From positions 1 through 44,338 of IMG/VR virus record IMGVR_UViG_3300025671_000123: DNA of 44,338 bases; one strand, 5' to 3'. The stretch is from a virus. This document shows positions 16,253-42,342 of this stretch, one piece after another. A program made the translations under genes and the position numbers. How positions within the stretch are numbered: position 1 is the first letter of the stretch; the number at the start of each line of letters is the position of its first letter. A model generated the notes under the pieces. The model saw only the letters and a list, made by a program, of their open reading frames with translations, ran no database searches and had not been told where the DNA came from.

Positions 16253-17884
16253 TTAGATAGTGTTCAAACCTGCTACGTAAATCTTAGCGTAGTATTCAGG
16301 TCTCAACATCTTCTTAGCGTAACGAGTCAAGAGACCTTTTCTTGGAGTGAAGGTCGTTGGATCGTATACGAGAGGAGTCATGATCAATGGAATGTAAGGA
16401 GCGAAAGTAGCACCTGTTTCCAAGAATTGTGAACCTCTGAAGCCTAACAAAATAGTGTTTTCAGTCATGTATGGGTTCTTGTAAACTTCATACTTAGCAT
16501 TCAAGTTACCAACTTTCTGGATGCCGAATGCATAGTTCATAGTTTCAGCATCAGCACCATCAGCAGCAGCAAATCCTGGGATTGATTCCAAGATAGTACC
16601 GATTGTTGGTGAGCATACCATGAAGTTAGCACCTCCTCTTAAAGTCAACTGGTGGATCTTGTTAGATACCTTGTTGATTTTAGTACCGAGGGTTTGGAAC
16701 CACTGACCTTGAGTGTTGTAGAAAGTACCGTTATCTACTGCACCATTAGCATCAAATTGTTCGTTGTTTCTAGCTGACCAGTATTCAGTAGTCAAGGCAT
16801 TTTCAACCAACATACCCAAGATTTCCAAGTCAATCTCAAGAGCGATGTACTCACTCATGATTGAAGTCAACTCAGCCTCAGCATCCAAGCTGTGGTAAGC
16901 ATTCAAATCTTGTGCGAACTCAGGAGTCCATACAGCTTTGAGCTTTTTAGTCTTAGCAACGATTGCTTCAGACTTCATCTTGATGTTGATTTCTGGGATG
17001 TCGATTGGGTTGTTTTCACCGTTTAATGCCGTATTACCATCTTCGAAGTCACCTCTGTATTGATCAGTTGGTTGTTGTACGTAAGTAACAACTAATCCTG
17101 AAGGGTCAACACCAGCTGTACCTTGAACAAACAATACTACGTTAGTACCATCAACAACGTTATAAGCAGCAACGTTTGAAGTTACATTTGAACCAGAAAC
17201 TGAGAAGCCTCTAACACCTGCCAAATCTGGGTTGTTAAATGAAGAAGCAGCAATAGTGAGTTTTTTCAAAGTTGCAGTAGTTGGTTGACCCGCAACAGAA
17301 GATGATAAAGCAGCATCGTATCCTACTTCAACCCAAGATCCTGAAGCGATTGCGCTTGGAGTAACACCAGATTGGGTAACGTTTGTAGAGTAAGTCCACT
17401 TACCAGCACCATATAAACCATCGGTTGGAGCAGAAGTAGTATCAGTAACACCGTACATAGAACCTGCACCGAATACATCATCACCTGCAGTGAATTTTCC
17501 ACCTAATTTTTCAGTACCATACTGGAAATCAAGGAAGAAAACGAGACCTGAAGGTAAGCTCATTGGTTGAACGCTAACGAAATCTTTCGCTGCAATTTGA
17601 CCAAATACCTTTCTTACGAGGGGTAAAGCAATACCAGCCCACTGTTCACCAGTACCAGTTTGGAAATTACCAGTAGAAGCGATTCCACCACCAGTTTGAG
17701 AAGTCTCAACTACGAGTTGTTTCGCTTGGTTTTCAAGGATCAAAGACATGTTGTTCTTGTCCATCTCAGAAGAAAGACCTTCCAACAAACCTGTTCTTGA
17801 CCACTTATTGGCTAACTTAGCAGCGTCAGATTGTACTGACTTCCACTGGTTAGCGCTCTCTAAAAGAGAATTTAAGTTTGACAT
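16253..17884 (-). CDS. gp23: Major capsid protein, gp23-like
   Basis: T4-type major capsid precursor of 543 aa (T4 gp23 is 521). The N-terminus is helical (NSLLESANQWKSVQSDAA), then IALPLVRKVFGQIAAKDFVS and VQPMSLPSGLVFFLDFQYGT, the conserved gp23 block. The C-terminus TFTPRKGLLTRYAKKMLRPE is also typical. T4 gp21 removes the first 65 residues of gp23; candidate sites here are Glu51 (ILE|N) or, by alignment position, Glu60 before TSQTGGG. Codons are visibly richer in C-ending forms (AAC, TTC, ACC) than neighbouring genes, as expected for the most abundant protein. The leader is AACAAAACAAA directly before the ATG. It is followed by a strong terminator. Confidence 0.95.
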   Translation of the reverse strand: MSNLNSLLESANQWKSVQSDAAKLANKWSRTGLLEGLSSEMDKNNMSLILENQAKQLVVETSQTGGGIASTGNFQTGTGEQWAGIALPLVRKVFGQIAAKDFVSVQPMSLPSGLVFFLDFQYGTEKLGGKFTAGDDVFGAGSMYGVTDTTSAPTDGLYGAGKWTYSTNVTQSGVTPSAIASGSWVEVGYDAALSSSVAGQPTTATLKKLTIAASSFNNPDLAGVRGFSVSGSNVTSNVAAYNVVDGTNVVLFVQGTAGVDPSGLVVTYVQQPTDQYRGDFEDGNTALNGENNPIDIPEINIKMKSEAIVAKTKKLKAVWTPEFAQDLNAYHSLDAEAELTSIMSEYIALEIDLEILGMLVENALTTEYWSARNNEQFDANGAVDNGTFYNTQGQWFQTLGTKINKVSNKIHQLTLRGGANFMVCSPTIGTILESIPGFAAADGADAETMNYAFGIQKVGNLNAKYEVYKNPYMTENTILLGFRGSQFLETGATFAPYIPLIMTPLVYDPTTFTPRKGLLTRYAKKMLRPEYYAKIYVAGLNTI

Positions 17885-19070: not shown

Positions 19071-19688
19071 TTATATAATTGGACACTGTCCGTTGTTACA
19101 TAATATTTCAGTAATTATTTCGTTTATTTTATAGTACTCATTAGTAACCGTAGCAGAAGAATCTAATCCTTCGCTTATAGGATGAACATAAGCACCTGGT
19201 GTAGAAGGGGTTGATACAAAATCCCAACATAACAATTCGAAATCATCTTGTACTTCTTGTACTCCATTAGAACCAGGTTTTAAACTACCCATTCCTCTAG
19301 AAGATACACCTACTGTAATTCCGTTTTTAAATAACTCTTTTAATATGTTGCCTGAGGGGGTTGGTAATATTTCAATTTTACCCATTACGTGATCCCCATC
19401 CCACCAAACGTCTTTAATATTATGTGAAACATTTTTGAGATTAATAATAGAAGAATCAGGATGGTCTAATTCACCTAATGCTCTATTTTCTGCTATTGGG
19501 CCTTTTTTATAGTTTTCAACTTCTCTAGCTAAAATTTCTTTAGGGTAAGATCTACCATTACCGTTTTGAGTTTCAGCAGATTGTAATTTACCCTCAACAA
19601 TTAAGTTACCATTTTCGGTCTTAACCGCTTCGGTAATTGCTTGAGGTGAAAGCCTAAAAAGTTGAGTATCTATGAGGGTTTGTCTCAT
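19071..19688 (-). CDS. gp21: Prohead protease, gp21-like
   Basis: Serine protease of the T4 gp21/herpes-assemblin fold, which degrades the scaffold and trims capsid proteins after Leu/Ile-x-Glu. The 205-aa product (T4 gp21 is 212) has the typical QNGNGRSYPKEIL (41-53) block. Candidate catalytic His76 lies in LGELDHPDSS and candidate Ser129/Ser130 in VGVSSRGMGSL (127-136). FELLCWDFVSTPSTPGA (150-166) completes the core. Its ATG overlaps the upstream 414-aa gene by 4 nt. A terminator follows it, and scaffold and capsid genes come next. The candidate sites on neighbouring proteins (see the CTS-like entries) would be its substrates. Confidence 0.92.
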   Translation of the reverse strand: MRQTLIDTQLFRLSPQAITEAVKTENGNLIVEGKLQSAETQNGNGRSYPKEILAREVENYKKGPIAENRALGELDHPDSSIINLKNVSHNIKDVWWDGDHVMGKIEILPTPSGNILKELFKNGITVGVSSRGMGSLKPGSNGVQEVQDDFELLCWDFVSTPSTPGAYVHPISEGLDSSATVTNEYYKINEIITEILCNNGQCPII

Positions 19689-20929
19689 TTTCCTCCAGTC
19701 ATAGTATTTTTATCAGCTATTACTTCCATCAACTTTTTTTCTAATTCCTTGATTTCTTTTTCAACTTCTTTAATAGCTTCCTGATTAATGAATTCTGAGA
19801 GAGATTCATCTTCGTTGATGGACATTGCTCTTTTTCTTTCTTCGATTGCTCTTTCGTAAATTTTAGATTCTACTTTTTTACGAGCAATCTCACCTAAACG
19901 CTCTGCTTCTTTAAGGACTTCAGACATTTTCATTCTGCCTTCCTTTTTCATTTTTTTCTTTTCTTCCTTTTCACCTGCTGATTTGCCTTTTTCATATTCA
20001 TAAGCAGCTTCACCTTCTTTCATATCATCTTCTTCAGCAATGTTACCGTGGGCTGTAGAGCCTTTAGGGTCATTAATAGTTCCTTTATTTTCTTCTGCTA
20101 AAAAGGCTTCAAAGCTATTTTCATAAGCTTCTTTTTTACGATTAGCAAAAGGATTTCCAATAGAGGGAATACCAGCTACAGCTTCTTCTAATAATTCTTT
20201 TAATTTATCTGAAGTAGTAGATTCTGATAGTTTTGGTTCTTTAAAACCACTCCATACAAAATTGGGTGTATCAAGGGCAGATTTAGGGTTACCATTGAGA
20301 CTTTTTTTTATATCTTCAGGGTTAACTTTAATTGACCCCTTTTTAAGATCCTGATCGAAGGTTGGTTTGGACATATAATAAGTCTTCCCACCTTGCATTG
20401 CTTGAAAAATTAAATCATTACCTTTAACTTTAACAACTTGGGCTAATTTTCCATCCTCCATTTCGTATTCAACATTTACATAGGGATGTTTTTTAGGATC
20501 AACTTGGAATTCTTCTTCTGTTAATAAAAAATTTTTAAAATTATTTAATTCTTTCATATCATTTTCTTTTAAGTCTCCGTAGCCGGAGGATTTATATTTA
20601 CCCTTAGGTTCTTCTTGTTGTTTTAATTCTTCGTATCCTAAACCATCTACTTTAAAAGCAGCATTTTTAGTATAAAAAATAGGATCTTTTTCTAAATTTT
20701 TAGCTACTACTTCTCTTGCTTCATCTATAGTTAATTTAGGATCTTTTTCCATTTCAACCCTTAAACCATTAATATACTGGTCAAAGATTTGGTTGTTTAG
20801 ATTCTTTTTGTCTTTATAATCGTAGCCAGCAGTTTCTTTTTCATTGACTTCTTTAGTAGTCTTCTTTTCTTCTGCTTTAGCTGCTTCAGCTAAAAATTCT
20901 TGGAATTTATATATAATTTCGCTTGTCAT
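19685..20929 (-). CDS. Putative internal head / prohead-core protein with CTS-like N-terminus (414 aa)
   Basis: No named family recognised. The highly charged Lys/Glu-rich protein begins MTSEIIYKFQEFLAEAAK, closely resembling the capsid-targeting sequence of T4 internal proteins (MKTYQEFIAEA) with an LAE|A gp21-type cut site. Related strings recur inside: NFKNFLLTEEE, SFEAFLAEENK and LSEFINQEA, so the polyprotein could be cut into several pieces. A middle region (VNVEYEMEDGKLAQVVKVKG) is beta-like. The C-terminus (residues about 330-405) is a long helix. It lies directly upstream of the protease gene with a 4-nt overlap. Internal-head function is inferred from the motif and position. Confidence 0.7.
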   Translation of the reverse strand: MTSEIIYKFQEFLAEAAKAEEKKTTKEVNEKETAGYDYKDKKNLNNQIFDQYINGLRVEMEKDPKLTIDEAREVVAKNLEKDPIFYTKNAAFKVDGLGYEELKQQEEPKGKYKSSGYGDLKENDMKELNNFKNFLLTEEEFQVDPKKHPYVNVEYEMEDGKLAQVVKVKGNDLIFQAMQGGKTYYMSKPTFDQDLKKGSIKVNPEDIKKSLNGNPKSALDTPNFVWSGFKEPKLSESTTSDKLKELLEEAVAGIPSIGNPFANRKKEAYENSFEAFLAEENKGTINDPKGSTAHGNIAEEDDMKEGEAAYEYEKGKSAGEKEEKKKMKKEGRMKMSEVLKEAERLGEIARKKVESKIYERAIEERKRAMSINEDESLSEFINQEAIKEVEKEIKELEKKLMEVIADKNTMTGGK

Positions 20930-27377: not shown

Positions 27378-28832
27378 TTATTTTTTAGGCATTGTTAAAC
27401 CACCAATATAATTTGCATCTTCTAAGTGAAAAAATAATTCTTCATTATTACAGTGAATAATATATTCTGCTACGTAAGTTCCTTGTGCTCCTGATACTGT
27501 GATTCCTCGAGCACTTAGTGCATCACCTACAAAATGTACATTATTAAAATCAGCAAGTGCTAATGTATCATAATCTACAAGAGGTTCAGGTGAAAGATAT
27601 TTTACTTCAGGAATGTACATACCCCAATCATCTCCTAATGTTGGGAATACTTTTTTCATATCTTCAATAAAATCTTCAATATAGGTAAAATAACCTTGGA
27701 AAGCATCTCGTACTTCTTGAAGTCCTTCTTCGTTAATATAATGTGCTTTTACCCAATCACCTTCTGATGTGTGGGTTTTTTCTCGTGAAGGGGAATAATA
27801 TAGACCCGCTTTATACTTAGATTCAAATCTACCTATAGCACGTTTTCCTCCGTATCCTTCACCACTAACAATACCTGTTTTTTGTACTTTAGAAACCAAT
27901 TCACGAGACCAATCAAATGGATTATCAATCCCTTGAACCTCCATTAAAATACCAAAATTAGTCATATCATTACGATATGCTTCATCTTTTTTGGCATGAC
28001 CATTGTAACTATAATCTCCATAAGTTTCCTCAAGTGCTACATATGCTGCATTGTTATTAGTACAAAATGAACGGAGTGATACACCTTCATCATCAAATTT
28101 ACGATATAATTTAAAATCATAACTTACATCAATAAGCTTTTGAAAGTGTTTTTGTGGTGCTTCAAAACGTACACCAATTTGTACTGGTTTTGGTTCGGTT
28201 GGGAAGTTATATTTTTCGGCTAATTTTTTACCAAAATCAATTCCTGATTTACCCACACCAAAAATCAAGCGGTCATATTCAAATGAATGTTCTAAATCTG
28301 ATTGTGGAGTAGAAGGTGTTTGATGATACCAACCTGTTTGATTTTCAAAGTCAATTGAAACTACCTTAGATTGCCATTCAAATTTAACACCCTTATCACA
28401 AAGATAATCGTACCAATTTTTACCAATTTCATGCAAGTAATCTGTACCTACGTGCCATACTGGGAATAATCGAAGTCCAAAGTATGGTTTAATAAAATCT
28501 GGTTCTGCTTCTGGGTTTGAGCATTGTACTTCCTCTGGTTTGGGGTGAAAACGTTTAAAGTTGGTGATTACCTCATCAAACAATTCCATTGCCTTTTCCT
28601 CACCACAATACTTAGACATATGTCCTCCAATTGCTGTGTGGTAAGTAAGTTTACCATCACTCCATCCTCCAGCACCCATAAAACCTGTCATTACTTCTTC
28701 AGGTTTGCGCTTGTAAGGATCATTACCCATATCAATGATGGTAATATGATCACCCGGATAACCATTATCTACTAATTTAGTAGCAGCATTTACGCCTGCT
28801 ACACCTGCTCCGATTATTACTATTTTTTCCAT
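27378..28832 (-). CDS. FAD-dependent oxidoreductase
   Basis: 484-aa flavoprotein of the NAD(P)/FAD-dependent dehydrogenase type, soluble by sequence. The N-terminal Rossmann motif reads IVIIGAGVAGVNAATKL (4-20) with GAGVAG at 8-13. The C-terminal FAD block reads VHFVGDALSARGITVSG (432-448) with the ribityl-contacting Asp437. The middle includes RLIFGVGKSGIDFGKKLAEK. It resembles the uncharacterised FAD-dependent dehydrogenase group (COG2509-like); the substrate is unknown. Such a gene is unusual in T4-like late regions and may be an auxiliary metabolic or redox-balancing gene. It is the first gene after a terminator and is preceded by an ATATTTA-type motif. Confidence 0.83.
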   Translation of the reverse strand: MEKIVIIGAGVAGVNAATKLVDNGYPGDHITIIDMGNDPYKRKPEEVMTGFMGAGGWSDGKLTYHTAIGGHMSKYCGEEKAMELFDEVITNFKRFHPKPEEVQCSNPEAEPDFIKPYFGLRLFPVWHVGTDYLHEIGKNWYDYLCDKGVKFEWQSKVVSIDFENQTGWYHQTPSTPQSDLEHSFEYDRLIFGVGKSGIDFGKKLAEKYNFPTEPKPVQIGVRFEAPQKHFQKLIDVSYDFKLYRKFDDEGVSLRSFCTNNNAAYVALEETYGDYSYNGHAKKDEAYRNDMTNFGILMEVQGIDNPFDWSRELVSKVQKTGIVSGEGYGGKRAIGRFESKYKAGLYYSPSREKTHTSEGDWVKAHYINEEGLQEVRDAFQGYFTYIEDFIEDMKKVFPTLGDDWGMYIPEVKYLSPEPLVDYDTLALADFNNVHFVGDALSARGITVSGAQGTYVAEYIIHCNNEELFFHLEDANYIGGLTMPKK

Positions 28833-29462: not shown

Positions 29463-29709
29463 TTTTTATAATTTTAATTGTTAATTTTCCGTTTCCTTTT
29501 ATTACACGATGTAAATATCCACGAGGAATATCAAACGTTGTATTTTCTTTTAATTCAAATGGGAGTTCATTATCAAATTGAAATTTCCACCCATTTCCTT
29601 CTATAACTTCTATTGTTCTATCTTCTTGATCTTCGTGCCAAATTAATGACATTGGGTCTACGTCTTCAGCAAATGTTCTTATATTTGAATTGTCTGTGTA
29701 AGGATTCAT
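29455..29709 (-). CDS. Cupin-like small protein (84 aa)
   Basis: 84-residue protein with the sequence TFAEDVDPMSLIWHEDQEDR followed by WKFQFDNELPFELKENTTFD and IPRGYLHRVIKGNGKLTIKI. The spaced H...E and terminal IPxGxxHR strand pattern resembles a mini-cupin; His36 and His67 could bind a metal. This family recurs in T4-like phages of marine bacteria but I know no demonstrated function. It overlaps the 192-aa gene stop by one base and the mini-histone start by 8 nt, so the group is translationally coupled. Confidence 0.65.
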   Translation of the reverse strand: MNPYTDNSNIRTFAEDVDPMSLIWHEDQEDRTIEVIEGNGWKFQFDNELPFELKENTTFDIPRGYLHRVIKGNGKLTIKIIKNG

Positions 29710-30287
29710 TATCCTGCTATATCACTAAGTACATTTTTAAAGATAGCGTGTACTTCTTTACCTTTAACTAAAGATTTTAAAGTATACAAACCACCTTTAA
29801 GATAACTAGCTTTTTTAAGATATCCAACAGCATTACCTCCTGCTTGGCCTGCCATCATTAAAATCACAATAGCATAAAGAACACTGGCAATTTGGTCTTG
29901 TTTCTTTTTATCTTTAGTAAATAAACTGACTATTCTTCTAATAGGAGCTTGGAATGCTTTTTCGTTATCGTGGGTCCACTTATAAATTTTAGCTGCTGCT
30001 TCTTTACCCTTACCCCAATCTCGTTTTTCAGCTTGTTTTTTAACAAATTTAGCAAGCATATTTGCTACTGTATTTGATAAAAGGATATATCCAATTATAC
30101 CTACTACACCAGCAACTTCATTTAATTCTTCTTCTTTACCTTCTAATTCATCTTCAATAGCAGTAGCTAATTCAGCACCTAAAGCATCAAACTCAGTATC
30201 AAATGCTGCTTCTTCTTTATCTTCCGCTTCTTGGAGGAGATAATTATTTTTTAAATATGCTTTGTAGTCGAAATTGTTCATTACCAA
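29709..30287 (-). CDS. Membrane-associated protein with CTS-like N-terminus (192 aa)
   Basis: No named family. The N-terminus MVMNNFDYKAYLKNNYLLQE|AEDKEE contains a Leu-x-Glu cut site (Glu20) behind an amphipathic stretch. An acidic linker (21-55) follows. Two hydrophobic segments, about 58-78 (VAGVVGIIGYILLSNTVANM) and 133-150 (IASVLYAIVILMMAGQAG), could insert in a membrane. Basic loops lie between and after them. If the start is a capsid-targeting sequence, this protein could be packaged and released on ejection, forming a membrane pore or channel; this is inferred. The start overlaps the 213-aa gene by 7 nt. Confidence 0.62.
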   Translation of the reverse strand: MVMNNFDYKAYLKNNYLLQEAEDKEEAAFDTEFDALGAELATAIEDELEGKEEELNEVAGVVGIIGYILLSNTVANMLAKFVKKQAEKRDWGKGKEAAAKIYKWTHDNEKAFQAPIRRIVSLFTKDKKKQDQIASVLYAIVILMMAGQAGGNAVGYLKKASYLKGGLYTLKSLVKGKEVHAIFKNVLSDIAG

Positions 30288-30922
30288 TAAGTGTTCATTT
30301 TAGCCCCTAAACCTAAAGCAGGAGCATATCTTGGGAGATTACAGCTCCAATATCCTGGGGTAGTTCTATCTTTTTTCTGATCGCAGTTATGTCTAGCAGC
30401 AAATGCCTGTCGCGCTTTTGGGTCTCTAATTTTTGCTCTTAATCCGCCGGATCCAAATGATACTTTTTTAACTTTATCCCCGTCCATTACATAAACGTAG
30501 TATGCTTTAGAACCACCACGTTTTGGTTTTCCAATTGCTACTTCTTTACCTTGATATTCAGCTTCGTCTATTGCTGGTAAGTCGAGTGGTACTTTTTTGC
30601 CTTCGTAGATTCCAAATTTACCAATGTCAGTATTTTCAATAAGGAATTTACTATTTTCATCTAAGCTAATAGTACCCCACTCAAGGAGCATTCTTGCTTC
30701 AGCAAATAATTGAAGGTATTTTTTAGATCCAATTCTAAACACATTCTCTTGTAGTGAGATGCTATTTTCGATGTGGTAGCGAAGACCTTCGCTTATAGGC
30801 GTTTTACTTTCTAATAATGCGAGTTTAGGTTGTGCTTCACTACAACCACCGCAGCCACATGAGCATGATTTTTTAGGCGCTTTAAACCCTTTTAGTGCTT
30901 CTTGAATGTATTGTTTGAGCAT
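30281..30922 (-). CDS. Cys-rich protein with CTS-like start (213 aa)
   Basis: It begins MLKQYIQE|ALKGFKAPKKS with an Ile-x-Glu site, then the striking SCSCGCGGC cluster (19-27), which could bind metal. Residues about 60-100 are a helical region (KYLQLFAEARMLLEWGTISL). The C-terminus VSFGSGGLRAKIRDPKARQA followed by FAARHNCDQKKDRTTPGYWSC (positions about 156-196) is a module recurring in T4-like phage proteins; its role is unknown. The YWSC block ends in a short NTYW tail. A promoter-like motif overlaps the start. A packaged or head-interior role is inferred from the N-terminus, not demonstrated. Confidence 0.62.
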   Translation of the reverse strand: MLKQYIQEALKGFKAPKKSCSCGCGGCSEAQPKLALLESKTPISEGLRYHIENSISLQENVFRIGSKKYLQLFAEARMLLEWGTISLDENSKFLIENTDIGKFGIYEGKKVPLDLPAIDEAEYQGKEVAIGKPKRGGSKAYYVYVMDGDKVKKVSFGSGGLRAKIRDPKARQAFAARHNCDQKKDRTTPGYWSCNLPRYAPALGLGAKMNTYW

Positions 30923-30925
30923 GGT

Positions 30926-30935
30926 TATAAATATT
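30926..30935 (-). promoter_or_regulatory. Promoter-like AATATTTATA motif
   Basis: Coding strand AATAATATTTATAACCATG, 3 nt before the ATG of the Cys-rich gene; the gap to the upstream gene is only 14 nt. Confidence 0.42.
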
Positions 30936-30936
30936 A

Positions 30937-32127
30937 TTAAAAAACGTCTGAATATTTAATTCTTATTCCTGCAGTATTAGGACCTATAGTTGCTTTACCC
31001 GCTGGGACTATTCTAAAGTCTAGTCCGTAAGGTTGTTTAGCATGTTGCTCAACTGTAAATACTGGTTCTACAGGAGTGTCTATAATTTGGGAGATATCAG
31101 TGTAAATAGAGTTAACTTTAACAGTTAAAGTATTATTATTATCATCAAAGTTAAAATCATCCTCATTAAAAGTACCTCCTACTACTTGAGTTTTAGGATT
31201 ATCAGTACCAAAAACATATAATTCATTTTCATCATTAGGAGCATCTTCTACAACAACCTTACTTATTCTAGTATCTGTTCCTCTTTTAAACATTAAATAT
31301 TTTGGTGTTGAATCTGTGTCTCTTCTTTCTCCACTGCGGCGCAATTCTACAGGAAAAGATTCATCTGTTAAAGCTTTATTTACAAATGCTTTACGAAAAG
31401 GTGTTTTATCATTATTTACAGAAGCCCATCTGAATCCCGATGATACTTTATCTTCTTCGATTTCACTATCTTGTTTAAGGGAAAGATTAGCCCCAATTCC
31501 TGAGGGGGTTAATAGTTGTACATCAGCTTTTGCTCCTTCTTGAGTTTTTTGAGAAGCATCTATAGCATCAATAACTTTTTTAACTTCTATTGATTTGCCC
31601 TTACCTATAAATTTTACAGTTATTGGGTTAATTCCTTCCCCAGTTGCTGCTTTTATATTTTGAAGTAAAGCTGCTTCTTCTTTTTTACCTCCTGTACCTT
31701 TTTTACCCCCACTAAATGAAATAAAAACTTCACCATATTGAGGAGTGTTAATCTGGTAGCCGGGTACAGAATCACTAGCTGCTAATCCTTTTCCTGCTTG
31801 GTGAGGAATTACTTCATTATCCTCAACTCCAAAATGAGTAGCTAATAATCCTTGTAATTCAGGGAATTTAACTTTAGTAGAATTTAATCTATTTTCATAT
31901 TTACCAGATTTAAATTTTATAAAATCATACTCTTTACCTATAGAACTATTAGCAAAATCTTCAGCTGCTTTTATTGAGGCTGCTCTAGAAATAGTTTCTT
32001 TTAAATCAATCCCCATCTCTCCTAATATTCCCTCTAATATAAGCATATCTTGTTCATCATTAATGTCAGGATATCCTTTAGGAAATTTATATGAAAACTT
32101 CTTGAAAAATTTATCTAATACGTCCAT
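30937..32127 (-). CDS. Putative PD-(D/E)XK-type nuclease (396 aa)
   Basis: Not assigned with certainty. The central region shows EEAALLQNIKAATGEG (150-165, Glu150/Glu151), then GAKADVQLLTPSGIGANLSLK (198-218) with Asp202 and the terminal SLK. This acidic-x(n)-Asp-x(13-15)-(S/E)-x-Lys layout is the signature of PD-(D/E)XK restriction-like folds, in which Ser may replace Glu. SGFRWASVNNDKTPFRKAFV follows. The N-terminus MDVLDKFFKKFSYKFPKGY and a nearby ILEGILGE string could be a targeting and cleavage region. The C-terminus (about 320-396) is beta-rich. Between two putative packaged proteins, a packaged nuclease is conceivable; the nuclease call needs a structure prediction. Confidence 0.5.
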   Translation of the reverse strand: MDVLDKFFKKFSYKFPKGYPDINDEQDMLILEGILGEMGIDLKETISRAASIKAAEDFANSSIGKEYDFIKFKSGKYENRLNSTKVKFPELQGLLATHFGVEDNEVIPHQAGKGLAASDSVPGYQINTPQYGEVFISFSGGKKGTGGKKEEAALLQNIKAATGEGINPITVKFIGKGKSIEVKKVIDAIDASQKTQEGAKADVQLLTPSGIGANLSLKQDSEIEEDKVSSGFRWASVNNDKTPFRKAFVNKALTDESFPVELRRSGERRDTDSTPKYLMFKRGTDTRISKVVVEDAPNDENELYVFGTDNPKTQVVGGTFNEDDFNFDDNNNTLTVKVNSIYTDISQIIDTPVEPVFTVEQHAKQPYGLDFRIVPAGKATIGPNTAGIRIKYSDVF

Positions 32128-32128
32128 A

Positions 32129-32662
32129 TTATAAATCGTCTACTGATGCTGGTACTCCTGCTTCTTCTTCTGGAGTAGCGGGTTCTTCTGCTGGTGTTTC
32201 TCCTTCATCTCCCAAAGCATCTGCTAATCCTTCATCTTCAATTGGCTCTTCTTTACCTGTAGTAGCATAGCTATATCTTAATAAACGAGCAATTGCCTCA
32301 GATGCTTGTTGTTCTTCTGGGAGGGATTCTAACCAGTATTTTTTGCCTGCTACTTGAGCTACAAATAATCCTTTGCCTTCGTCCTCACCTTGGTAAATTA
32401 AATAAAAATCTGCTCCATTTACTAATACAACTCTAAAGGTTGTTGGACGTGGGGCTACCCATTGTATATCTTCTACAAAAGGTTCATATTGAAAATCAAA
32501 TAAATCATCCATAACACCTTTTAACGGAGGAAACTTATCAACTATAGGAAATTTACTAACAATTTTTTCAATTTCCTCGGGTTCCGCTAAAGGATTAGAT
32601 TTCTCAGCATAAACTTGTTTTGCTAAGGTTTTGATTTTTGCTATGAATTCAGACTTCTGCAT
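32129..32662 (-). CDS. Hypothetical accessory protein with CTS-like start (177 aa)
   Basis: Not recognised. The N-terminus MQKSEFIAKIKTLAKQVYAE resembles the opening of the neighbouring 150-aa protein (MKKSEFKEYLKTEIL). The middle (VAPRPTTFRVVLVNGADFYL, GLFVAQVAGKKYWLESLPEE) looks like a small alpha/beta domain. From residue about 145 the tail is acidic and Ala/Pro-rich (EPATPEEEAGVPASVDDL), likely disordered. Its stop and the start of the nuclease-like gene are one base apart, and its start overlaps the 311-aa gene by one base. A head-interior role is inferred from the shared N-terminus. Confidence 0.58.
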   Translation of the reverse strand: MQKSEFIAKIKTLAKQVYAEKSNPLAEPEEIEKIVSKFPIVDKFPPLKGVMDDLFDFQYEPFVEDIQWVAPRPTTFRVVLVNGADFYLIYQGEDEGKGLFVAQVAGKKYWLESLPEEQQASEAIARLLRYSYATTGKEEPIEDEGLADALGDEGETPAEEPATPEEEAGVPASVDDL

Positions 32663-33597
32663 TATTTTCTTAACTTTTCAATAGCCTTATCAATACGATT
32701 TAATTCATCTCCATATCTATCCGCAATTGGACCTCCTTCTGGTTCAGCTTCTTGTTCCATGTCCCTCATTAAACGTTCTCTTTCTTTTTGTAAGAGAGCA
32801 ATTTTAGCAGAATTGTCTTTTTTTCTTTTAGGAACCATAGGTTTAGGGGCATTAGCTTTTTTTTCACGCTCCATTTTATCTGCCCTTAATTTCATTAAGA
32901 TGGGATCATTAATTCCCATTTCTTCCTCTAACGTAGCATCTATTTGAGGTACTGCTAATTCACCATCAAGATAATGTTTTGCTTTAACCATTGCTTCTTT
33001 TGAAGTAATGATTTTAGCTTGCCACCATTGTGGAAAATCAACTTCTTGTCCTTCAACATCAAATTGATCTACCATTTTATACAATTCTGAAGCATATTTA
33101 GCTATTCTGTATAGATCCTTTTTAAGCATGTGGGGTTCATTATCTTGATGTCCAATGTCCATATCTTCTTTTTGGACTGCTTTTTCAATAGCAGCACCTC
33201 TTTTTTTCTCATAAGAAGAAAGTTTACCATCTTTATTTAAATCGGCTTTTTTAGGGTTTTTAAGTTCCCCTTCTGTAAACTTACCAGTCATAAAGTTATA
33301 ATTTTTAGGCAATTGTTCTGCGTTAGTTTTATAAGGTTTCTTTTCATCATCCTTTTTTTTAGAGCCAAGAGTAGTCATTATGGCATGTGCAATGCTTTGA
33401 ATTTCTTCTAAGTCGAAAGCTTTTTTAAATTTACCCATGTGTTTTTCTTTTTTCTTTTCTTCACCTTTAGTTAACTTACGTTCATTAGTAGGTGATTGAG
33501 GTTTACCATGCTTAGCCAAATTAGTAGCTAATGCATAAGCTAATGATGTCCTTTCTTTTTTAGACATCTTATCTAATTTGGTCTTTTTTTTAGCCAT
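32662..33597 (-). CDS. Lys-rich accessory protein with EF-hand-like loop (311 aa)
   Basis: Highly charged 311-aa protein. Residues about 118-132 read DLNKDGKLSSYE, the DxNxDGxxxxxE pattern of an EF-hand/dockerin calcium loop. Residues about 150-210 (EDMDIGHQDNEPHMLKKDLY, FDVEGQEVDFPQWWQAKIIT) form a module that I recall from other T4-like phages of marine bacteria, function unknown. The C-terminus (about 255-311) is a coiled-coil-like helix. There is no membrane segment. It overlaps single bases of its neighbours and lies inside the run of putative packaged proteins. Calcium binding is inferred from the motif alone. Confidence 0.6.
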   Translation of the reverse strand: MAKKKTKLDKMSKKERTSLAYALATNLAKHGKPQSPTNERKLTKGEEKKKEKHMGKFKKAFDLEEIQSIAHAIMTTLGSKKKDDEKKPYKTNAEQLPKNYNFMTGKFTEGELKNPKKADLNKDGKLSSYEKKRGAAIEKAVQKEDMDIGHQDNEPHMLKKDLYRIAKYASELYKMVDQFDVEGQEVDFPQWWQAKIITSKEAMVKAKHYLDGELAVPQIDATLEEEMGINDPILMKLRADKMEREKKANAPKPMVPKRKKDNSAKIALLQKERERLMRDMEQEAEPEGGPIADRYGDELNRIDKAIEKLRK

Positions 33598-34049
33598 TAC
33601 GCTTCTTTTTCTACTTTCTTAAATTCAGTTTTAGCTGAAAATTTAGCAGAATTGAGAATTTGGTTTGCTAATTCTGTTTGTCCTGCTTCTTTAGCATCCT
33701 TAGCTAATTTAACTAATTCGTCTGTGATAGCATCAATGTCGCCTTCACCAGTTGGTTCGAATTCAAAGCTTGCTTCATCTTCAATATCAAGTTCTTCACC
33801 ATCAGTAGTTACTTCTTCTTCAGCATCTACTTCTTCTTCCTCTTGTTCAGCAATTTCAGCTAAGATTTCATTGCGAAGATACTCTTTAAACTCAGATTTT
33901 TTAACTTTACCTTCCATTTGGGAAGTTAATTCTTTAGTTTTTTCAAGTTCAGCATTAAGCTCTTTTTGCATATCTACTTCTTCAGCAGTTGCTTCATTCA
34001 TTTTAAGAATTTCAGTCTTAAGATATTCCTTAAATTCAGATTTTTTCAT
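33597..34049 (-). CDS. Acidic protein with duplicated KKSEFKEYL(K/R)xEIL motif (150 aa)
   Basis: The N-terminus MKKSEFKEYLKTEILKMNEA is repeated almost exactly at about 50-69 (VKKSEFKEYLRNEILAEIAE), separated by a Glu-rich helix. The second copy contains ILAE|I and IAE|Q strings that fit gp21-type cutting. Residues 70-105 are almost pure Glu/Asp/Ala, and the C-terminus is helical (ELVKLAKDAKEAGQTELANQ). The acidity recalls scaffold-type or head-interior proteins. The duplicated segment resembles capsid-targeting sequences of other proteins in this cluster. It begins 29 nt after the Cys-rich 136-aa gene. Confidence 0.65.
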   Translation of the reverse strand: MKKSEFKEYLKTEILKMNEATAEEVDMQKELNAELEKTKELTSQMEGKVKKSEFKEYLRNEILAEIAEQEEEEVDAEEEVTTDGEELDIEDEASFEFEPTGEGDIDAITDELVKLAKDAKEAGQTELANQILNSAKFSAKTEFKKVEKEA

Positions 34050-34078
34050 TTTATTTGTTGTTGATAAGTTCCTTATTA

Positions 34079-34489
34079 TTATTTCGAGGCTTTTTTACCC
34101 CAAGATTTACCTTTACCCGGGTCTTTACATTGTGAAGCAGTTGGGCGGCAAGCAGGATAAGAGCGCTTTTCACCTTTTTTTCTACCACAAGGTTTATAAC
34201 CTGTTTTTTTTCCGTCTTTATAGATAGGAGCATTACAATCTACCCACCCACCTGTTTTGCCAGGAGCACCTGATCGTTTAAACCAAGTACGTAATGTTTC
34301 TTTGGCTTTTTCTTGAATTTGTTCTTCCTTTAAACCTTTCCAAATATCACCTTTACGGCATCTAACTACCGCACCACTTTTATAAGCAGAAGGTTTGTCA
34401 AATTTTCTGTCAGCAATACGAAGACATCTGTCTCGTTTTTTTTCTGCTAATACAGATTGAATTACTTCTTTAAGGTTATGAATAGCCAT
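34079..34489 (-). CDS. Basic Cys-rich protein, DUF5872-like (136 aa)
   Basis: The N-terminus MAIHNLKEVIQSVLAE|KKRD has a Leu-x-Glu site (Glu16). Then RCLRIADRKFDKPSAYKSGA followed by VVRCRKGDIWKGL is a Cys-containing module. The C-terminal half GGWVDCNAPIYKDGKKTGYK, PCGRKKGEKRSYPACRPTAS and the ending CKDPGKGKSWGKKASK is the phage DUF5872-type block with five or six conserved cysteines. The protein is strongly basic and could bind nucleic acid or metal; function unknown. A promoter-like motif lies just upstream. It has a 29-nt gap to the acidic protein. Confidence 0.68.
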   Translation of the reverse strand: MAIHNLKEVIQSVLAEKKRDRCLRIADRKFDKPSAYKSGAVVRCRKGDIWKGLKEEQIQEKAKETLRTWFKRSGAPGKTGGWVDCNAPIYKDGKKTGYKPCGRKKGEKRSYPACRPTASQCKDPGKGKSWGKKASK

Positions 34490-35234: not shown

Positions 35235-35383
35235 CTTCTAAAACCTTTTATTTGTTTTTTAACTGCTATATCCTGCATAGATTTAAGTAAAGTTAATCTT
35301 TTATTAATTAATCCTTGCATTAATTCGAGAGTTTCGATATCAAACTCATCATTTACAGCGTCTATAAAATCTTTAGTTTTCAT
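35231..35383 (-). CDS. Small hypothetical helical protein (50 aa)
   Basis: I translated this gene directly: it starts MKTKDFIDAVNDEFDIETLE, reads through a lysine-rich helix (LINKRLTLLKSMQDIAVKKQ) and stops at TGA, overlapping the next ATG (ATGA). Its start lies 11 nt inside the end of the 708-aa gene. No family recognised. The acidic first half and basic second half suggest a small helical hairpin. Support comes from the perfect start-stop overlaps on both sides. Confidence 0.62.
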   Translation of the reverse strand: MKTKDFIDAVNDEFDIETLELMQGLINKRLTLLKSMQDIAVKKQIKGFRR

Positions 35384-37499
35384 TTTTTAATTTATCTTCC
35401 CAGTTTCTAAATAAAATATTACCATTTTCATAAGCTTCACGCTCAATACGTTCTAAATCACCATCTTCATTTGTGTTTTGTGTTTGGAATGGCTCCAAAG
35501 TGTTATTTAAATTTTGATGATGATGAACTAATTCATGAGCATATGAACGTAAAATATCTTTAGGATGTCTACCTAAAGTATATAAAACAATTTTCATTTC
35601 AGAAGGCATATAATATGCTGTTTTTCCAAAAATATTAACAGCATTTTCTTTATCATCTTCTATAAATTCTACTGAAGGGTGGGGTTTTAGGGTTAAGCCA
35701 TTATTACCCATGTAGTCAGTTAATGAATCAATATAAGATTGAATATTATCTTCATAATTCTCATTTAATCGAGTTTTAGGTAAGTTCTTTTTTATCCACT
35801 CTTCCCATTTACTTCTTACATATGCTTCTTCTGCATAGGATAATTCTTCAGAACGTTCTAAGAAAAATTCGTCTATGGCTTGTCCTAATGTGATATTTTT
35901 AGTTTTAGCTCTTTTGTTTAAACCTCTTATAAAAGCAGGAGTTTCATAATCTAAAGTAAGATATTTAGGAAGTTCAAGCTTAGCAGCATTTTTAACATTT
36001 CCTATTTTAACTCCTTTTTCAAAGTGTTCTTGTCCAACATGTTCTAACTCATGACGTAAAGTTTCTTTAAGTTCAGCTGTTAAATCATTTAGATATTCAA
36101 AAAAGGAAGGTGTTTCATAGTTTATTACTAATTCAATGCCATCTTTTCCCCCAGCAGCATCTACAAGATAAGGAGAAGATCCTAGATCTCCGGATTCTAA
36201 AGGATTTAATTTAAATTCTAAAGTATATTTTACATTTTTTAAATCCCCTTCTATTTCTTCTTCATAATAAGTTCCTAAATTATCTTTAAGTTGATTAATT
36301 ACATAACGAGAATATTTTAGGGTTTCACTATCATAAGATCCAGTATAATATTTTGAATCTAGGGTAAATTCTTGTAAAGGAAAAATTGGAGATGACTTAT
36401 GTGTTTTAAAATCACGTTTACGCATAATAGTTTTAGCTATAGCTCTGTTAGCTCGTTTCATAAACGGGATATTAATGTTAGTTTGATTATCTTTTGCAAC
36501 TAAAGATTTATATTTAGTAAGGAATTGAATAAACTCTTCTTTTTTATCAGCTAATTTATCAAAGAAATCTTCTATTTCGTGGGGTTCAATATCTGGGTAG
36601 TTGCGAGGGTCATTTAATCTATCAAAGAAGTGGTTAGAGGATAAATCTATATCAATTTCAGGTTGCATTTTACTATCTGCTTCGTCTTCAATAAATTCTA
36701 CTTCATCTTTAGTAAATTCAGGCTTAAATGAAATTCGTTCTTCTAATCCTAAGGTAGCTAATTTAGTATAGTATTTAGGATCCTCATCTAAATGATCTAA
36801 AGCAATTTTTAATGCTATTTTAGGATTATCAGTATGTTCTTTTTCTACTTCAATTCCCTTTTTTAATTCTTCACGATCGTATTTGTCTAAAGGACTTGTT
36901 TTTTCTTCAGCTACTACATCTTTTAACATATCCCAAATTTGATCTACTTCGGGAATGTCTGGAAGAAATTGTATAAATCCTTCTTTATCTCCTGCTAATA
37001 ATGCTTGTCTGGCTTTGGTACCACTAACTGCTCCTGTTGTTACTATAGGTTTAACTGTTACGTTTTGGTAAACTAATTTACGGAGTGAGCGAGTACGTTT
37101 TTCTATATCTTGAAAATCATCTTCATTTCCTTCTCTAGCACCTACAAACCAATAAACATCTTGATTAGGATTTTTTCTAGCATAAGAATATATGTCTCCA
37201 ATAGGAGCTCTACCTTCAGGAGAAGCTATTACTTCAACCTTACTACCAAGATATTTTTTATAGATATTCCAAATAGCTACTGATTCTTCTTGGCTAATAG
37301 AATCTCTTACTCCACTTCCTACCAACACAATCATTTTATCCATTTGAGGATTTTCACTTAAAGCTCGTTTTACTACCTCTAAATGACCTACTGTAGGTGG
37401 TTTAAATCCACCTCCAAACATTCCTACTATTTCCTTTTTATTAGGTAACTCATTTTCAGGTAATAACCCCTTTAATAACTCAAGTGATAAAAGATTCAT
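35373..37499 (-). CDS. Multidomain nucleotidyltransferase / double HExxH protein (708 aa)
   Basis: Unusual fusion. Residues 25-175 form a cytidylyltransferase/NMNAT-like domain: GMFGGGFKPPTVGHLEVVKR (26-45, with TxGH) and GAVSGTKARQALL (156-168), the equivalent of the ISxTxxR motif. Residues 205-250 (KGIEVEKEHTDNPKIALKIA, LDHLDEDPKYYTKL) resemble DUF5661. Two zinc-protease-like motifs follow: HELEH at 483-487 and HELVH at 655-659 (LRSYAHELVHHHQNLNNTLE). The acidic EREAY near 688 is a possible third ligand. The start MNLLSLELLKGLLPENEL could include a capsid-targeting/cleavage site (LPE|N). It overlaps the P-loop kinase gene by 4 nt. Substrates are unknown. Confidence 0.8.
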   Translation of the reverse strand: MNLLSLELLKGLLPENELPNKKEIVGMFGGGFKPPTVGHLEVVKRALSENPQMDKMIVLVGSGVRDSISQEESVAIWNIYKKYLGSKVEVIASPEGRAPIGDIYSYARKNPNQDVYWFVGAREGNEDDFQDIEKRTRSLRKLVYQNVTVKPIVTTGAVSGTKARQALLAGDKEGFIQFLPDIPEVDQIWDMLKDVVAEEKTSPLDKYDREELKKGIEVEKEHTDNPKIALKIALDHLDEDPKYYTKLATLGLEERISFKPEFTKDEVEFIEDEADSKMQPEIDIDLSSNHFFDRLNDPRNYPDIEPHEIEDFFDKLADKKEEFIQFLTKYKSLVAKDNQTNINIPFMKRANRAIAKTIMRKRDFKTHKSSPIFPLQEFTLDSKYYTGSYDSETLKYSRYVINQLKDNLGTYYEEEIEGDLKNVKYTLEFKLNPLESGDLGSSPYLVDAAGGKDGIELVINYETPSFFEYLNDLTAELKETLRHELEHVGQEHFEKGVKIGNVKNAAKLELPKYLTLDYETPAFIRGLNKRAKTKNITLGQAIDEFFLERSEELSYAEEAYVRSKWEEWIKKNLPKTRLNENYEDNIQSYIDSLTDYMGNNGLTLKPHPSVEFIEDDKENAVNIFGKTAYYMPSEMKIVLYTLGRHPKDILRSYAHELVHHHQNLNNTLEPFQTQNTNEDGDLERIEREAYENGNILFRNWEDKLKNEN

Positions 37500-38290
37500 G
37501 ATAAAAATGCCTTAAGTTTAGATTGAGCCTCTTCTTTTGAGACTGATGAATTAACAATATCTTTTACAACTTCATCAGATAGGAATTTTTTGATTTCTTC
37601 TCTATCTTTAGCTTTTCTAGCATCGGATCTAGCTTGTTCTTTAGGGGTTTTAGGTTTAGTATCTTTAGGAGTAAATGGTTCAAGATATTTTACCATTATA
37701 TCCTCTAAATTAGTTAATTTTTCATCACCTAAAGTATTAGCAACCGAAACAAAATTATTACCAAACAATTCTTTATAGGGAGCGAAATTTTTAGTTACGT
37801 CCTTCCAAGTTTTCATTACTATACCAGGAGCTAAACTTCTGTCTTCACCTCCTGATTTTTCAAATCTATCTTGGTTTTGTTTTAAAGAACGTTCTAAATC
37901 AGTATAAACATAAAGCATAAATACTTCGTATCCTGCTTCTTCTAATTCATTTTTTAATTGTACTGTTTTATTATATGAAGCGGCGGTACCATCTAAAATA
38001 AATGATTCTTTTCCTTTAATAGTAGCAGTAATATTATCTCTAAAATCTTTAACTGCTGACATCATTGCTTTAGCAGATTCACTTCTTTCTTCAGGGGTAG
38101 AGTTTTTTAGATCTAAACTAACATTTGCTTTTTTTAGGTTTTGAATGTAAATATCATCTACATTCATTACTTTTAAGCTACTTAAATCTAAACCTCTTAA
38201 GATATACCCTTTCCCAGCTCCAGGAGCCCCTGCTAAAATTATAGCTTTGGGACTCCCTTGTATTTCTTTTAAAATATCGTACAATTTCAC
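37496..38290 (-). CDS. P-loop kinase, zeta-toxin-like (264 aa)
   Basis: The N-terminus MKLYDILKEIQGSP is followed by AIILAGAPGAGKGYILRGL with Walker A GAPGAGKG (21-28). MNVDDIYIQ (41-49) carries the acidic catalytic region, and SFILDGTAASYNKTVQLKNE a substrate-loop region, in the style of zeta-toxin/AAA_33 phosphotransferases. The C-terminal third is lysine-rich and helical. The start is GTG, chosen because the upstream in-frame region lacks an ATG and the promoter-like dyad lies 15 nt before it. Substrate unknown. The start could again be CTS-like (ILKE). It overlaps the 708-aa gene by 4 nt, so the two may act together. Confidence 0.72.
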   Translation of the reverse strand: MKLYDILKEIQGSPKAIILAGAPGAGKGYILRGLDLSSLKVMNVDDIYIQNLKKANVSLDLKNSTPEERSESAKAMMSAVKDFRDNITATIKGKESFILDGTAASYNKTVQLKNELEEAGYEVFMLYVYTDLERSLKQNQDRFEKSGGEDRSLAPGIVMKTWKDVTKNFAPYKELFGNNFVSVANTLGDEKLTNLEDIMVKYLEPFTPKDTKPKTPKEQARSDARKAKDREEIKKFLSDEVVKDIVNSSVSKEEAQSKLKAFLS

Positions 38291-40021: not shown

Positions 40022-40471
40022 TTAGAAATCAAAGTCTGAGGTGAAGAACTTTCCTAAAATATTATCGTTATAGTACAAATCAGGATTTTCCAACACTTCT
40101 AGCTGGAATAGGTATTTAGTTTCTAAGTATGTAAGATGTTTTTTATTAAAACCTATTTCGATAATTTGTTTCTCCAAATCTTCCAGCGTAACTTCACCTT
40201 TAGTTATTTGGTCCTTTAAATGTTTATTTGAACCATAATATGTCTTCCAATCGCTTTCTTTACTCTCAATTACACTTAATTTTCTTCTCCCTCGACCAGA
40301 TTGTTCTTTTAATTCTGCTCTTGTAAGTTTTCGTTTACGATTGTGATACAACGCTTTTTTACCAACATACTTTTTACCCTCGGGGGTAATTACTACATAA
40401 ATAAACCCGAATGCCCCAAGGGGGAATTCTGATATATTTGTAATTTCTTTTTTATTATATAACCAATTCAT
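40022..40471 (-). CDS. GIY-YIG-like endonuclease (149 aa)
   Basis: Small nuclease of the GIY-YIG superfamily. FGFIYVVITPEGKKYVGKKAL (21-41) supplies the GFIY / YVG core (Tyr25, Tyr35), then ESDWKTYYGSNKHLK (72-86), a motif shared with phage Seg-like endonucleases. HLTYLETKYLFQ (112-123) contains candidate catalytic Glu117. Such genes are often mobile homing endonucleases in T4-like phages; no intron is evident nearby. It lies between the fibre cluster and the primase, a position typical for an insertion at a module boundary. The promoter-like element is not evident for this gene. Confidence 0.75.
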   Translation of the reverse strand: MNWLYNKKEITNISEFPLGAFGFIYVVITPEGKKYVGKKALYHNRKRKLTRAELKEQSGRGRRKLSVIESKESDWKTYYGSNKHLKDQITKGEVTLEDLEKQIIEIGFNKKHLTYLETKYLFQLEVLENPDLYYNDNILGKFFTSDFDF

Positions 40472-40479
40472 ATTTTATT

Positions 40480-42342
40480 TTATACTGGGACGATTGCAGC
40501 GTCTCTATAATCTTGAATTGCTGTAGGTAATAACCCCCATTCATCAGTAGACCTTTCCCAATACATAAATTTAATTTGTATAGGTCTTCCCCAGTTTCCT
40601 TGGGTATTACTAATTTGTGCTAAATTAGCACCTCCATCTTGATTTATCAATTTAAGTCTCTTAAAAGGTAATCCCTGATTGTAAGTGAATTCAGCTAGTA
40701 AATCAACAGCATTTCCACTAGTACCAAAACTAATATCGCTAAACCACTTAGCATCTACAATTAACTCATCCCCAGAATTTAAGGTATTTCTAAAATCTTC
40801 ATCAACCCCAAAGGCAAAAAAATCTTGATCCTCTGAAAGATTACCTAGAGTAAGTCTTGTATAGTAATTACTTAAAAGATAATGAGCGTCACCTGAAAGT
40901 TTAAAATGTCCTGTGATATTACCTCTATTAGTAAATACAGAAGATCCTACTTCACTATCATAATTTACTATTAAATCAACATAAGGAATTAGGGCATCAC
41001 TATAGTGTGTAACGTTCGTTATATTATATATAGCATAGTTAGTAGAACCCTCTCCAATTTTTAATTGTGATCCTGAAATAGGTACAATACTATTACTACC
41101 TGAAGAAGCAAAAGAAGCTGAGTTGTCATTTATAGCTATTTTCATTCTTCCGTTTAGGGCTTTAGTCAAAGATTGAATTAAAACTTCACCATCAAGAGGA
41201 ACTTCAGTAACAATATTACTAGCTAATTCAAAAGAATAAACATCAGTACCTGTATCCCCATCGGGTCTTAAAAGGTTAACAGTTGTACTTCTATAATCAA
41301 CCCTATCAGGATTAACAATACTATAATTATTTCCAGCATAATTTCTACTTTCTCTAACTACTTTCCCCGTACCTGTAACCGCTAAGTTATATGTAGGGGT
41401 TTCTATAAAATTAGTTCCTGTGTAATTAGAAAGTATAATTTGACCATTATTTTTAATTCTTAAACGTGTAGAAGCTGCAGAAGCACCTTCTGCTGTTGTA
41501 AGAAAATCAATTCGTGTGGGGTATGATGGAGGAAAAGTACCACTCCATGTTCCATCACCCTCAAATTTTATAGAAGGTGAATAATTGGTATTGCTTTCCC
41601 AACCATTATAACCCACTAAAGATCCCAATAAAGTATCTGTTTCTACATTCACTACGCCAGTCTGTAATTGTAAGGTAGGATTTGAAGTAGGTACTGGGTT
41701 AAAAATTCTAGTAAATCCTACAACATTAAAAAAGTTAGCAGAATCATTCCAAGTTAGATTACTAGTAGCGGTTGGAGTATCTGTAGCACTAAAGTATATC
41801 ATTTGGTATTGAGTACCTGTAATAGAAGTTCCAGGAACTCCATCAGCTCCATCTGTTCCGCTAGTACCGGAGGAACCTGAAATTCCTGATGAACCACTAC
41901 TTCCGCTAGTTCCACTTGAGCCTGAAGAACCTGATGTTCCTGAAGAGCCAGATGAACCTGATGTTCCACTACTTCCTGAAGAACCTGATGAACCTGAAGT
42001 TCCTGATGAACCACTACTTCCGCTAGTTCCACTTGAACCTGAAGAACCACTAGTACCTGAAATACCAGAAGTGCCTGAAGAACCTGAAGTACCTAAAGTA
42101 GTTGTTTGAATCTTTACAGAAGTACCATCTAAAACTAAAACTGAAGTCTGACCTGTTGTAGTTTCTAAATCTGTAAAATCTACAGGTCCTTCAACCTCTA
42201 AACTACCACTTATAGTAATATCATAATCCTCATTCCCCGTTAGGGCATCCACAGATTGGGAAACGTGCCATGATTGTATTTTAAAATTTTGTACTACTTC
42301 ATCTGTAGTAGGAACAAATATTTTTTTCAGTTGTTTTGCCAT
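40480..42342 (-). CDS. Collagen-like fibre protein A (620 aa)
   Basis: Structural fibre. Residues 1-65 (MAKQLKKIFVPTTDEVVQNF, then SWHVSQSVDALTGNEDYDIT) form a base module nearly identical to that of the next gene upstream. Residues 84-171 are a collagen-like Gly-X-Y tract made of GSSGTSG units (41830-42093), probably a flexible or trimerising stalk. The remaining 450 residues are a beta-rich head (EVPLDGEVLIQSLTKALNGR, PIQIKFMYWERSTDEWGLLP). The C-terminus FMYWERSTDEWGLLP is mirrored in the paralogue (FMYWNISADNDYGLML). Host-surface binding is likely but inferred. A promoter-like motif precedes it. Confidence 0.82.
   Translation of the reverse strand: MAKQLKKIFVPTTDEVVQNFKIQSWHVSQSVDALTGNEDYDITISGSLEVEGPVDFTDLETTTGQTSVLVLDGTSVKIQTTTLGTSGSSGTSGISGTSGSSGSSGTSGSSGSSGTSGSSGSSGSSGTSGSSGSSGTSGSSGSSGTSGSSGSSGISGSSGTSGTDGADGVPGTSITGTQYQMIYFSATDTPTATSNLTWNDSANFFNVVGFTRIFNPVPTSNPTLQLQTGVVNVETDTLLGSLVGYNGWESNTNYSPSIKFEGDGTWSGTFPPSYPTRIDFLTTAEGASAASTRLRIKNNGQIILSNYTGTNFIETPTYNLAVTGTGKVVRESRNYAGNNYSIVNPDRVDYRSTTVNLLRPDGDTGTDVYSFELASNIVTEVPLDGEVLIQSLTKALNGRMKIAINDNSASFASSGSNSIVPISGSQLKIGEGSTNYAIYNITNVTHYSDALIPYVDLIVNYDSEVGSSVFTNRGNITGHFKLSGDAHYLLSNYYTRLTLGNLSEDQDFFAFGVDEDFRNTLNSGDELIVDAKWFSDISFGTSGNAVDLLAEFTYNQGLPFKRLKLINQDGGANLAQISNTQGNWGRPIQIKFMYWERSTDEWGLLPTAIQDYRDAAIVPV
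41830..42093 (-). repeat. Collagen-like Gly-X-Y tract in fibre A
   Basis: About 88 codons of GSSGTSG-type units, with near-identical codons in tandem. Such arrays expand and contract by slippage. The +1/+2 frames across it also stay open, producing spurious reading frames. Confidence 0.88.

Follow-up and report, generated by a model that had tools for sequence, protein, structure and literature searches.

A single gene in the window analysed here (the whole 44,338-nucleotide stretch of IMG/VR virus record IMGVR_UViG_3300025671_000123) joins a nucleotidyltransferase to two apparent metallopeptidases, which raises the question of how, and where, such a chain could function. Genes for an S77 prohead protease, a gp23-like capsid protein, a portal, a terminase and a head–tail adaptor mark the window as a 44-kb piece of a T4-type myovirus; the nearest cultured relative that we found is Flavobacterium phage immuto, whose gene order is broadly collinear. 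The interval 35373–37499 is open on the minus strand only (stop codons are numerous on the plus strand) and encodes 708 residues from an ATG start, confirming the single chain claimed in a preliminary description of this DNA; the motifs quoted there lie at residues 29–39 (GGGFKPPTVGH), 159–164 (SGTKAR), 483–487 (HELEH) and 655–659 (HELVH). We judge it likely that the product is a head-cargo polyprotein of this T4-type phage, which would be targeted by an N-terminal tag, cut by the gp21/S77 protease, ejected into the host and shuffled at its linkers. Comparison with IMG/VR relatives resolved, after a short N-terminal peptide, five modules: a nucleotidyltransferase (NTase), DUF5661, a module at residues 255–377, and two peptidases (MP1 and MP2); the third of these modules and the [LI]xE linkers were absent from the preliminary description. 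The features of the gene are as follows, a slash marking here and below the position after the Glu of [LI]xE.

35373..37499, minus strand: predicted cargo polyprotein ORF, 708 aa, ATG start, stop codon at 35373–35375
37455..37499, minus strand: residues 1–15, MNLLSLELLKGLLPE/, capsid-targeting-like peptide ending LxE, with tags in relatives
36900..37454, minus strand: residues 16–200, NTase, TxGH and SGTKxR motifs, homologous to cyanophage T4-GC190
36738..36899, minus strand: residues 201–254, DUF5661 (Pfam PF18905, E 5.9e-12), ending at junction LEE254/R
36369..36737, minus strand: residues 255–377, BECR/RegB-like putative RNase with invariant H, R and T, ending at junction LQE377/F
35760..36368, minus strand: residues 378–580, zincin-like peptidase MP1 (AF2 pLDDT 91.5), ending at junction LNE580/N
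35376..35759, minus strand: residues 581–708, zincin-like peptidase MP2 (AF2 pLDDT 89.1; IrrE/selecase/SprT fold matches)

Neither the whole protein nor the module profiles found a significant relative in PDB sequence searches; the modules were characterized from family profiles, conservation and modelled folds. CTP_transf_like matches residues 27–165 just under the Pfam cut-off (E 5e-4, 20.7 bits against 21); one relative (L004) exceeds it at 22.3 bits, and the NTase motifs (T/HxGH, SSTxxR-like) are conserved among relatives. The module appears to belong to the NMN adenylyltransferase/PPAT/cytidylyltransferase type, the usual substrates of which are small molecules, and its immuto homologue is annotated as a NadR-type NMN adenylyltransferase. 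The DUF5661-like module of the preliminary description is PF18905, well over its cut-off at residues 202–249 (46.2 bits against 27). Within the BECR-like module a His, an Arg and a C-terminal Thr are invariant (H35, R39 and T102 in a 21-sequence alignment), and excerpts of PMC5512222 give a conserved His in the N-terminal helix with a C-terminal Thr/Ser as the active-site pattern of phage BECR RNases. REGB_T4 is matched weakly by 4 of the 21 members (best E 0.0015) and DUF4258, also weakly, by one; given matches of this kind and the His/Arg/Thr pattern, RNase activity of residues 255–377 is a lead. The Pfam matches of MP1 and BECR members were otherwise mostly scattered and weak, and were set aside.

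The two HExxH segments are not chance occurrences, since every homologue of MP1 (61/61) and of MP2 (55/55) has the same ligand residues, namely H, E and H together with a Glu further downstream. The candidate third ligands are E519 for HELEH and E686 for HELVH. In AlphaFold2 models built from the homologue alignments, both confident, a long helix carries HExxH and the next conserved helix carries the invariant Glu, which is the layout that the preliminary description had proposed to look for at each site. We consider it credible from these models that MP1 and MP2 are zincin-like peptidases with the Glu as probable third ligand, and the proposed coexistence of a nucleotidyltransferase head and two metallopeptidases in one ORF is borne out to that extent. 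As modelled, MP2 combines the HExxH helix, a third ligand on the following helix and a zincin fold, its best PDB fold matches being IrrE/PprI (E 0.011, probability 0.98), selecase and a SprT-type protease. Matches of MP2 to Peptidase_M91 were weak and below cut-off, and we did not accept that membership. The MP1 fold has no significant match in the PDB; it matches viral predicted structures only, among them one from Serratia phage BF that is named “Structural protein” (E 0.011).

The same modules recur in some 20 arrangements across ~150 related loci, in which the NTase is the first module wherever it is present and the others vary in order (for example NTase-BECR-MP1-MP2, NTase-DUF5661-MP1-BECR-MP2, NTase-MP2-MP1 and NTase-MP1). 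Single-module proteins also occur, and complete ORFs range from 142 to 1279 aa. Since the modules change order, can stand alone and have [LI]xE between them, the “fusion” is probably a precursor and not one working enzyme. Eight of 67 relatives, cultured immuto included, are headed instead by a Pol-beta NTase (MSGxxGG) and lack an N-terminal [LI]xE; the gene before such polyproteins encodes another nucleotidyltransferase-like protein (L005:2665-3669, L006:4148-5062, L008:10215-11123), which in two copies carries a tag with LIAE or LIDE before GGNVF and in immuto begins directly at MGGNVF. We also observe a basic module ([A/E]DPKKGTGKKPKGSGRRLYTDEDPSDTV...), perhaps nucleic-acid binding, after [LI]xE in many polyproteins (L001, L002, L003, L009, L012–L015 and others). 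ORF 458 of the T4-superfamily Sinorhizobium phage phiM12 (L168:3543-5351, 602 aa) ends in a BECR module that DLKE/ precedes, and PHROG 23027, matched by the window protein, has the same length as this ORF.

The T4 prohead protease gp21 cuts after L/I-X-E (PMC9026906), and the window protein bears such motifs at LPE15/N, LEE254/R, LQE377/F and LNE580/N; the boundary between NTase and DUF5661 carries no [LI]xE, only VAE198. We asked whether [LI]xE marks module boundaries in general, using 67 non-redundant relatives. With breakpoints taken loosely at HSP ends and single-linkage clusters, no enrichment of [LI]xE was seen (30/179 against 0.18), probably because many HSP ends fall inside diverged domains; after this null result the breakpoints were replaced by stringent ones, defined as the limits of local alignments that reach 50% identity or more and have unrelated flanks. 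By that definition [LI]xE is found at 159 of 247 module ends (46.5 expected) and at 153 of 291 module starts (55 expected). The look-alikes [LI]xD, [LI]xK, [LI]xQ and [LI]Ex are flat at boundaries, and the related patterns [VMF]xE (1.6–2.1x) and E.[LI] (1.4–1.6x) rise less. After redundancy reduction the frequencies are 0.50 against 0.22 and 0.46 against 0.225, about twofold over random, with z-scores of 6.2 and 5.1 that need cautious reading, since the eight sequences that first suggested the hypothesis are themselves part of the test set, and the relatives are not independent of one another. Inside domains [LI]xE is depleted (0.57x, or 0.32x with A/G/S/N next) and outside them it is raised (1.42x and 2.16x, respectively), as against 1.18x in the immuto early proteins used as a comparison set; the depletion is clear in MP1, MP2 and BECR but not in NTase. 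Ahead of the DPKKGTGKK module, 12 of 16 junction sequences retain L/I and 12 of 16 retain E, amid neighbouring residues that vary.

These distributions bear on whether the chain is cut at all between its modules. An intact multi-domain effector, packaged and ejected with only its tag removed and with [LI]xE serving as flexible, recombination-prone spacers, would accommodate the sites that fall within modules (five further ones in the window protein), and it would be in keeping with the known SPN3US cleavages, in which processed substrates lose N-terminal propeptides only, the protease itself excepted (PMC10052503). The enrichment of boundaries in [LI]xE specifically, and not in its D, K or Q counterparts, argues against it, as do the depletion inside domains and the retention of L/I and E among varying neighbours, and we regard this reading as unlikely. 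The cargo polyprotein accounts better for the same motifs, and cleavage between the modules is what their placement suggests.

Judged by their sequence, residues 1–15 (MNLLSLELLKGLLPE/) resemble a T4 capsid-targeting peptide, the T4 sequence used for comparison being MKTYQEFIAE. T4 capsid-targeting (CTS) peptides have 10–19 residues (PMC9026906), and LPE at residue 15 of the window protein fits a propeptide of that length ending L/I-X-E. An [LI]xE lies in the first 25 residues of 51 of the 67 relatives, typically at 14–15, as in MNSLVKSLIQPLLE, and the tag is retained when the next domain differs (L025). Stand-alone modules carry their own 10-aa [LI]xE tags just before the same mature start: MP1 alone has a tag of the MISLKTLIIE/GRYD type in many phages, and within polyproteins GRYD likewise comes directly after [LI]xE (LPLEE/GRYD). 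One phage encodes MIKLRSLITE/F on BECR beside MIKLRNILSE/GKYD on MP1, and the DUF5661-BECR protein of immuto is tagged MKKSQLRQIIKE/A. Across the immuto head/cargo region [LI]xE occurs at residues 7–18 in 20/33 ORFs (5.8 expected from shuffles), as against 21/135 of its early genes (17 expected). In the window, 9/16 head and cargo ORFs are tagged (3.1 expected) and 3/27 others (3.0 expected), in a grouping that was chosen after seeing the sequences.

The link to virions comes through the cyanophages. By profile comparison (E 1e-5, probability 82.5%) the NTase is a homologue of T4-GC190, a cyanophage core protein which excerpts of Sullivan et al. 2010 (PMC3037559) report as detected in purified S-SM1 virions by mass spectrometry. 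That homologue starts MKKFSAFLNE/A, and its relatives start MKKFSTFISE/A, MKGFSNFLIE/A, MKSFLNFLFE/A, MRFLDFIKE/A and MKKFSEIIE/A; hundreds of phage records, mostly of cyanophages, encode the NTase. No such tag is seen on the NTase homologues of the large phages Vibrio 2.275 and Pseudomonas PAC2, and that of Pelagibacter phage HTVC008M has no tag, yet has [LI]xE linkers and adjoins a related zeta-like kinase. A literature search found no virion proteomics of phiM12 or immuto, and an excerpt of the XacN1 jumbo phage paper names no such protein in its virion data. Packaging is well supported by these findings; the products of the polyprotein are presumably present in the virion of this phage, and the tags suggest that they may enter the host along with the DNA.

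The cyanophage proteins also inform on which protease would be responsible. A classic polyvalent protein, packaged and then cut by its own zincin domains, would draw on the intact ligands of both zincins, on the zincins, BECR RNases and Pol-beta NTases that are typical of polyvalent proteins, and on the zincin autoprocessing proposed for these (excerpts of PMC5512222). The cyanophage NTase proteins, however, contain no HExxH, and tags and linkers therefore do not require that their own chain include a zincin: both are seen without any HExxH in S-SM1, S-ShM2, Melnitz and immuto35A_190, and [LI]xE linkers also in HTVC008M. Tags are present on single-domain proteins too, and the motif is that of gp21. 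We consider self-processing improbable on these grounds, and favour cleavage of the cargo polyprotein by the prohead protease, which is encoded in the window among other head and candidate cargo genes.

19071..19688, minus strand: gp21-family (T4) prohead protease, predicted processing enzyme (Peptidase_S77 PF03420, E 1.2e-32; PHROG 207)
19685..20929, minus strand: prohead-core-like protein, start MTSEIIYKFQEFLAE/A, adjoining the prohead protease
16253..17884, minus strand: major capsid protein of gp23 type (PHROG 138, E 6e-66)
37496..38290, minus strand: Zeta-toxin-like P-loop kinase, N-terminal VKLYDILKE/ (Pfam Zeta_toxin, E 1.1e-17)
29709..34489, minus strand: small-ORF cluster in which several N-termini bear [LI]xE tags (among them 30281–30922, MLKQYIQE/A; 34079–34489, ...VLAE/K)

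Every related contig of 100 kb or longer (11/11) encodes the S77 protease, as do 7/15 shorter fragments. The product of 19685–20929, whose start is strikingly like a T4 internal-protein tag, is a probable prohead core protein, and N-terminal LLE and ILE sites on the major capsid protein are common to the window phage and immuto. The Zeta-toxin-like kinase, directly upstream of the polyprotein gene and with its tag retained in L001–L004, is a probable co-cargo, and the small-ORF cluster is probably further cargo; some of its ORFs begin MKKSEF- or MQKSEF-type, and similar starts are found in immuto (MKKSQL, MKKSEL). Close to the terminase gene, the head region encodes a dehydrogenase-like protein (27378–28832, minus strand; PHROG 12409, E 5e-21). 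The N-terminus MAKQLKKIF.P..DEVVQ.F is common to two neighbouring ORFs for collagen-like tail fibres (40480–42342 and 42370–44037, minus strand), as though they came from a duplication. The name “NAD synthetase” (PHROG 447) for 40022–40471 (minus strand) is doubtful, since its product resembles a GIY-YIG nuclease and has a further match, at E 1e-10, to a homing endonuclease family. That the polyprotein gene encodes an unpackaged intracellular multi-domain enzyme, serving for instance NAD or nucleotide metabolism during replication, is very improbable: the NadR-type annotation in immuto and the primase and exonuclease genes that adjoin the locus would suit such a role, but the CTS-like tags, the neighbouring tagged cluster and the virion detection of the cyanophage homologue speak against it.

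We therefore return to the head-cargo polyprotein, for which the following sequence of events can be proposed. The first 15 residues would act as a capsid-targeting propeptide, drawing the chain into the prohead core; upon prohead maturation, the phage's own gp21/S77 protease would cut after [LI]xE at LPE15, LEE254, LQE377 and LNE580, removing the tag and freeing NTase plus DUF5661 (27 kDa), the putative RNase (15 kDa), MP1 (23 kDa) and MP2 (15 kDa). The freed proteins would stay with the DNA and enter the host by ejection, where, early in infection, they might act on nucleotide pools, RNA, proteins or defence; recombination at the [LI]xE linkers would swap, add and drop modules. Several observations weigh against this scheme: the untagged relatives headed by a Pol-beta NTase (immuto among them), the boundary of NTase and DUF5661 with VAE198 in place of an [LI]xE, the five [LI]xE within modules, the null result with loose breakpoints, and the propeptide-only cuts in SPN3US. 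The preliminary description had envisaged a packaged, fused effector that could modify and cleave host proteins, an action that is tentative; head packaging and ejection are probably right, and the fusion would give way to a precursor cut into separate enzymes. On balance, we also lean towards the wider proposition that T4-type phages of aquatic bacteria make true cargo polyproteins, with one tag and with prohead cuts at [LI]xE junctions where recombination also takes place, which would let phages differ in their payload one bead at a time.

If this is so, the T4-type maturation protease releases a multi-enzyme payload besides trimming scaffold and tags, a strategy better known from the polyproteins of eukaryotic viruses. 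An N-terminal tag ending [LI]xE would then be a sequence rule predicting injected cargo in T4-type genomes, yielding ~20 candidate head/cargo proteins from a single cultured phage and making dozens of “hypothetical proteins” candidate early effectors. It may also explain the cytidylyltransferase reported in cyanophage virions in 2010.

Known systems share parts of this arrangement. In T4 the function of the CTS is established, and the internal proteins IPI, IPII and IPIII and Alt, which are CTS-tagged, processed by gp21 and injected, likewise have a short N-terminal propeptide ending L/I-x-E, an S77 protease in the same phage and probable delivery with the DNA, but they are separate genes trimmed at their ends, whereas here several enzymes share one chain with [LI]xE between them; the window protein has no Pfam or PHROG match to IPI–III or Alt, and we propose that it works like the T4 internal proteins without classing it as their homologue. 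T4-GC190, annotated “cytitidyltransferase”, pairs a homologous NTase with a T4-type tag and was found in purified S-SM1 virions, and at ~290–420 aa in cyanophages it lacks the peptidase and DUF5661 modules of the window protein; excerpts of PMC3037559 do not discuss its tag or [LI]xE sites and report no processing. In phiKZ and SPN3US many head proteins are cut by a gp21-related protease after a Glu-ending motif and ejected; the motif there is S/A-x-E, and the reported cuts remove propeptides instead of releasing a set of enzymes from a single chain. In excerpts of Iyer et al. 2017 (PMC5512222), polyvalent proteins, which phages and conjugative elements both encode, place unrelated enzymatic domains on one polypeptide, shuffle them between elements and likewise feature zincins, BECR RNases and Pol-beta NTases. 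Among the papers searched, this is the only one to mention prohead proteases together with polyvalent proteins; its excerpts propose processing by zincins and contain no description of a cargo polyprotein cut by a prohead protease. The window protein, with at least two domains of unrelated activity in one polypeptide, fits the polyvalent-protein concept and, with the prohead protease motif in its linkers and a T4-type tag at its N-terminus, would add a different processing route to it.
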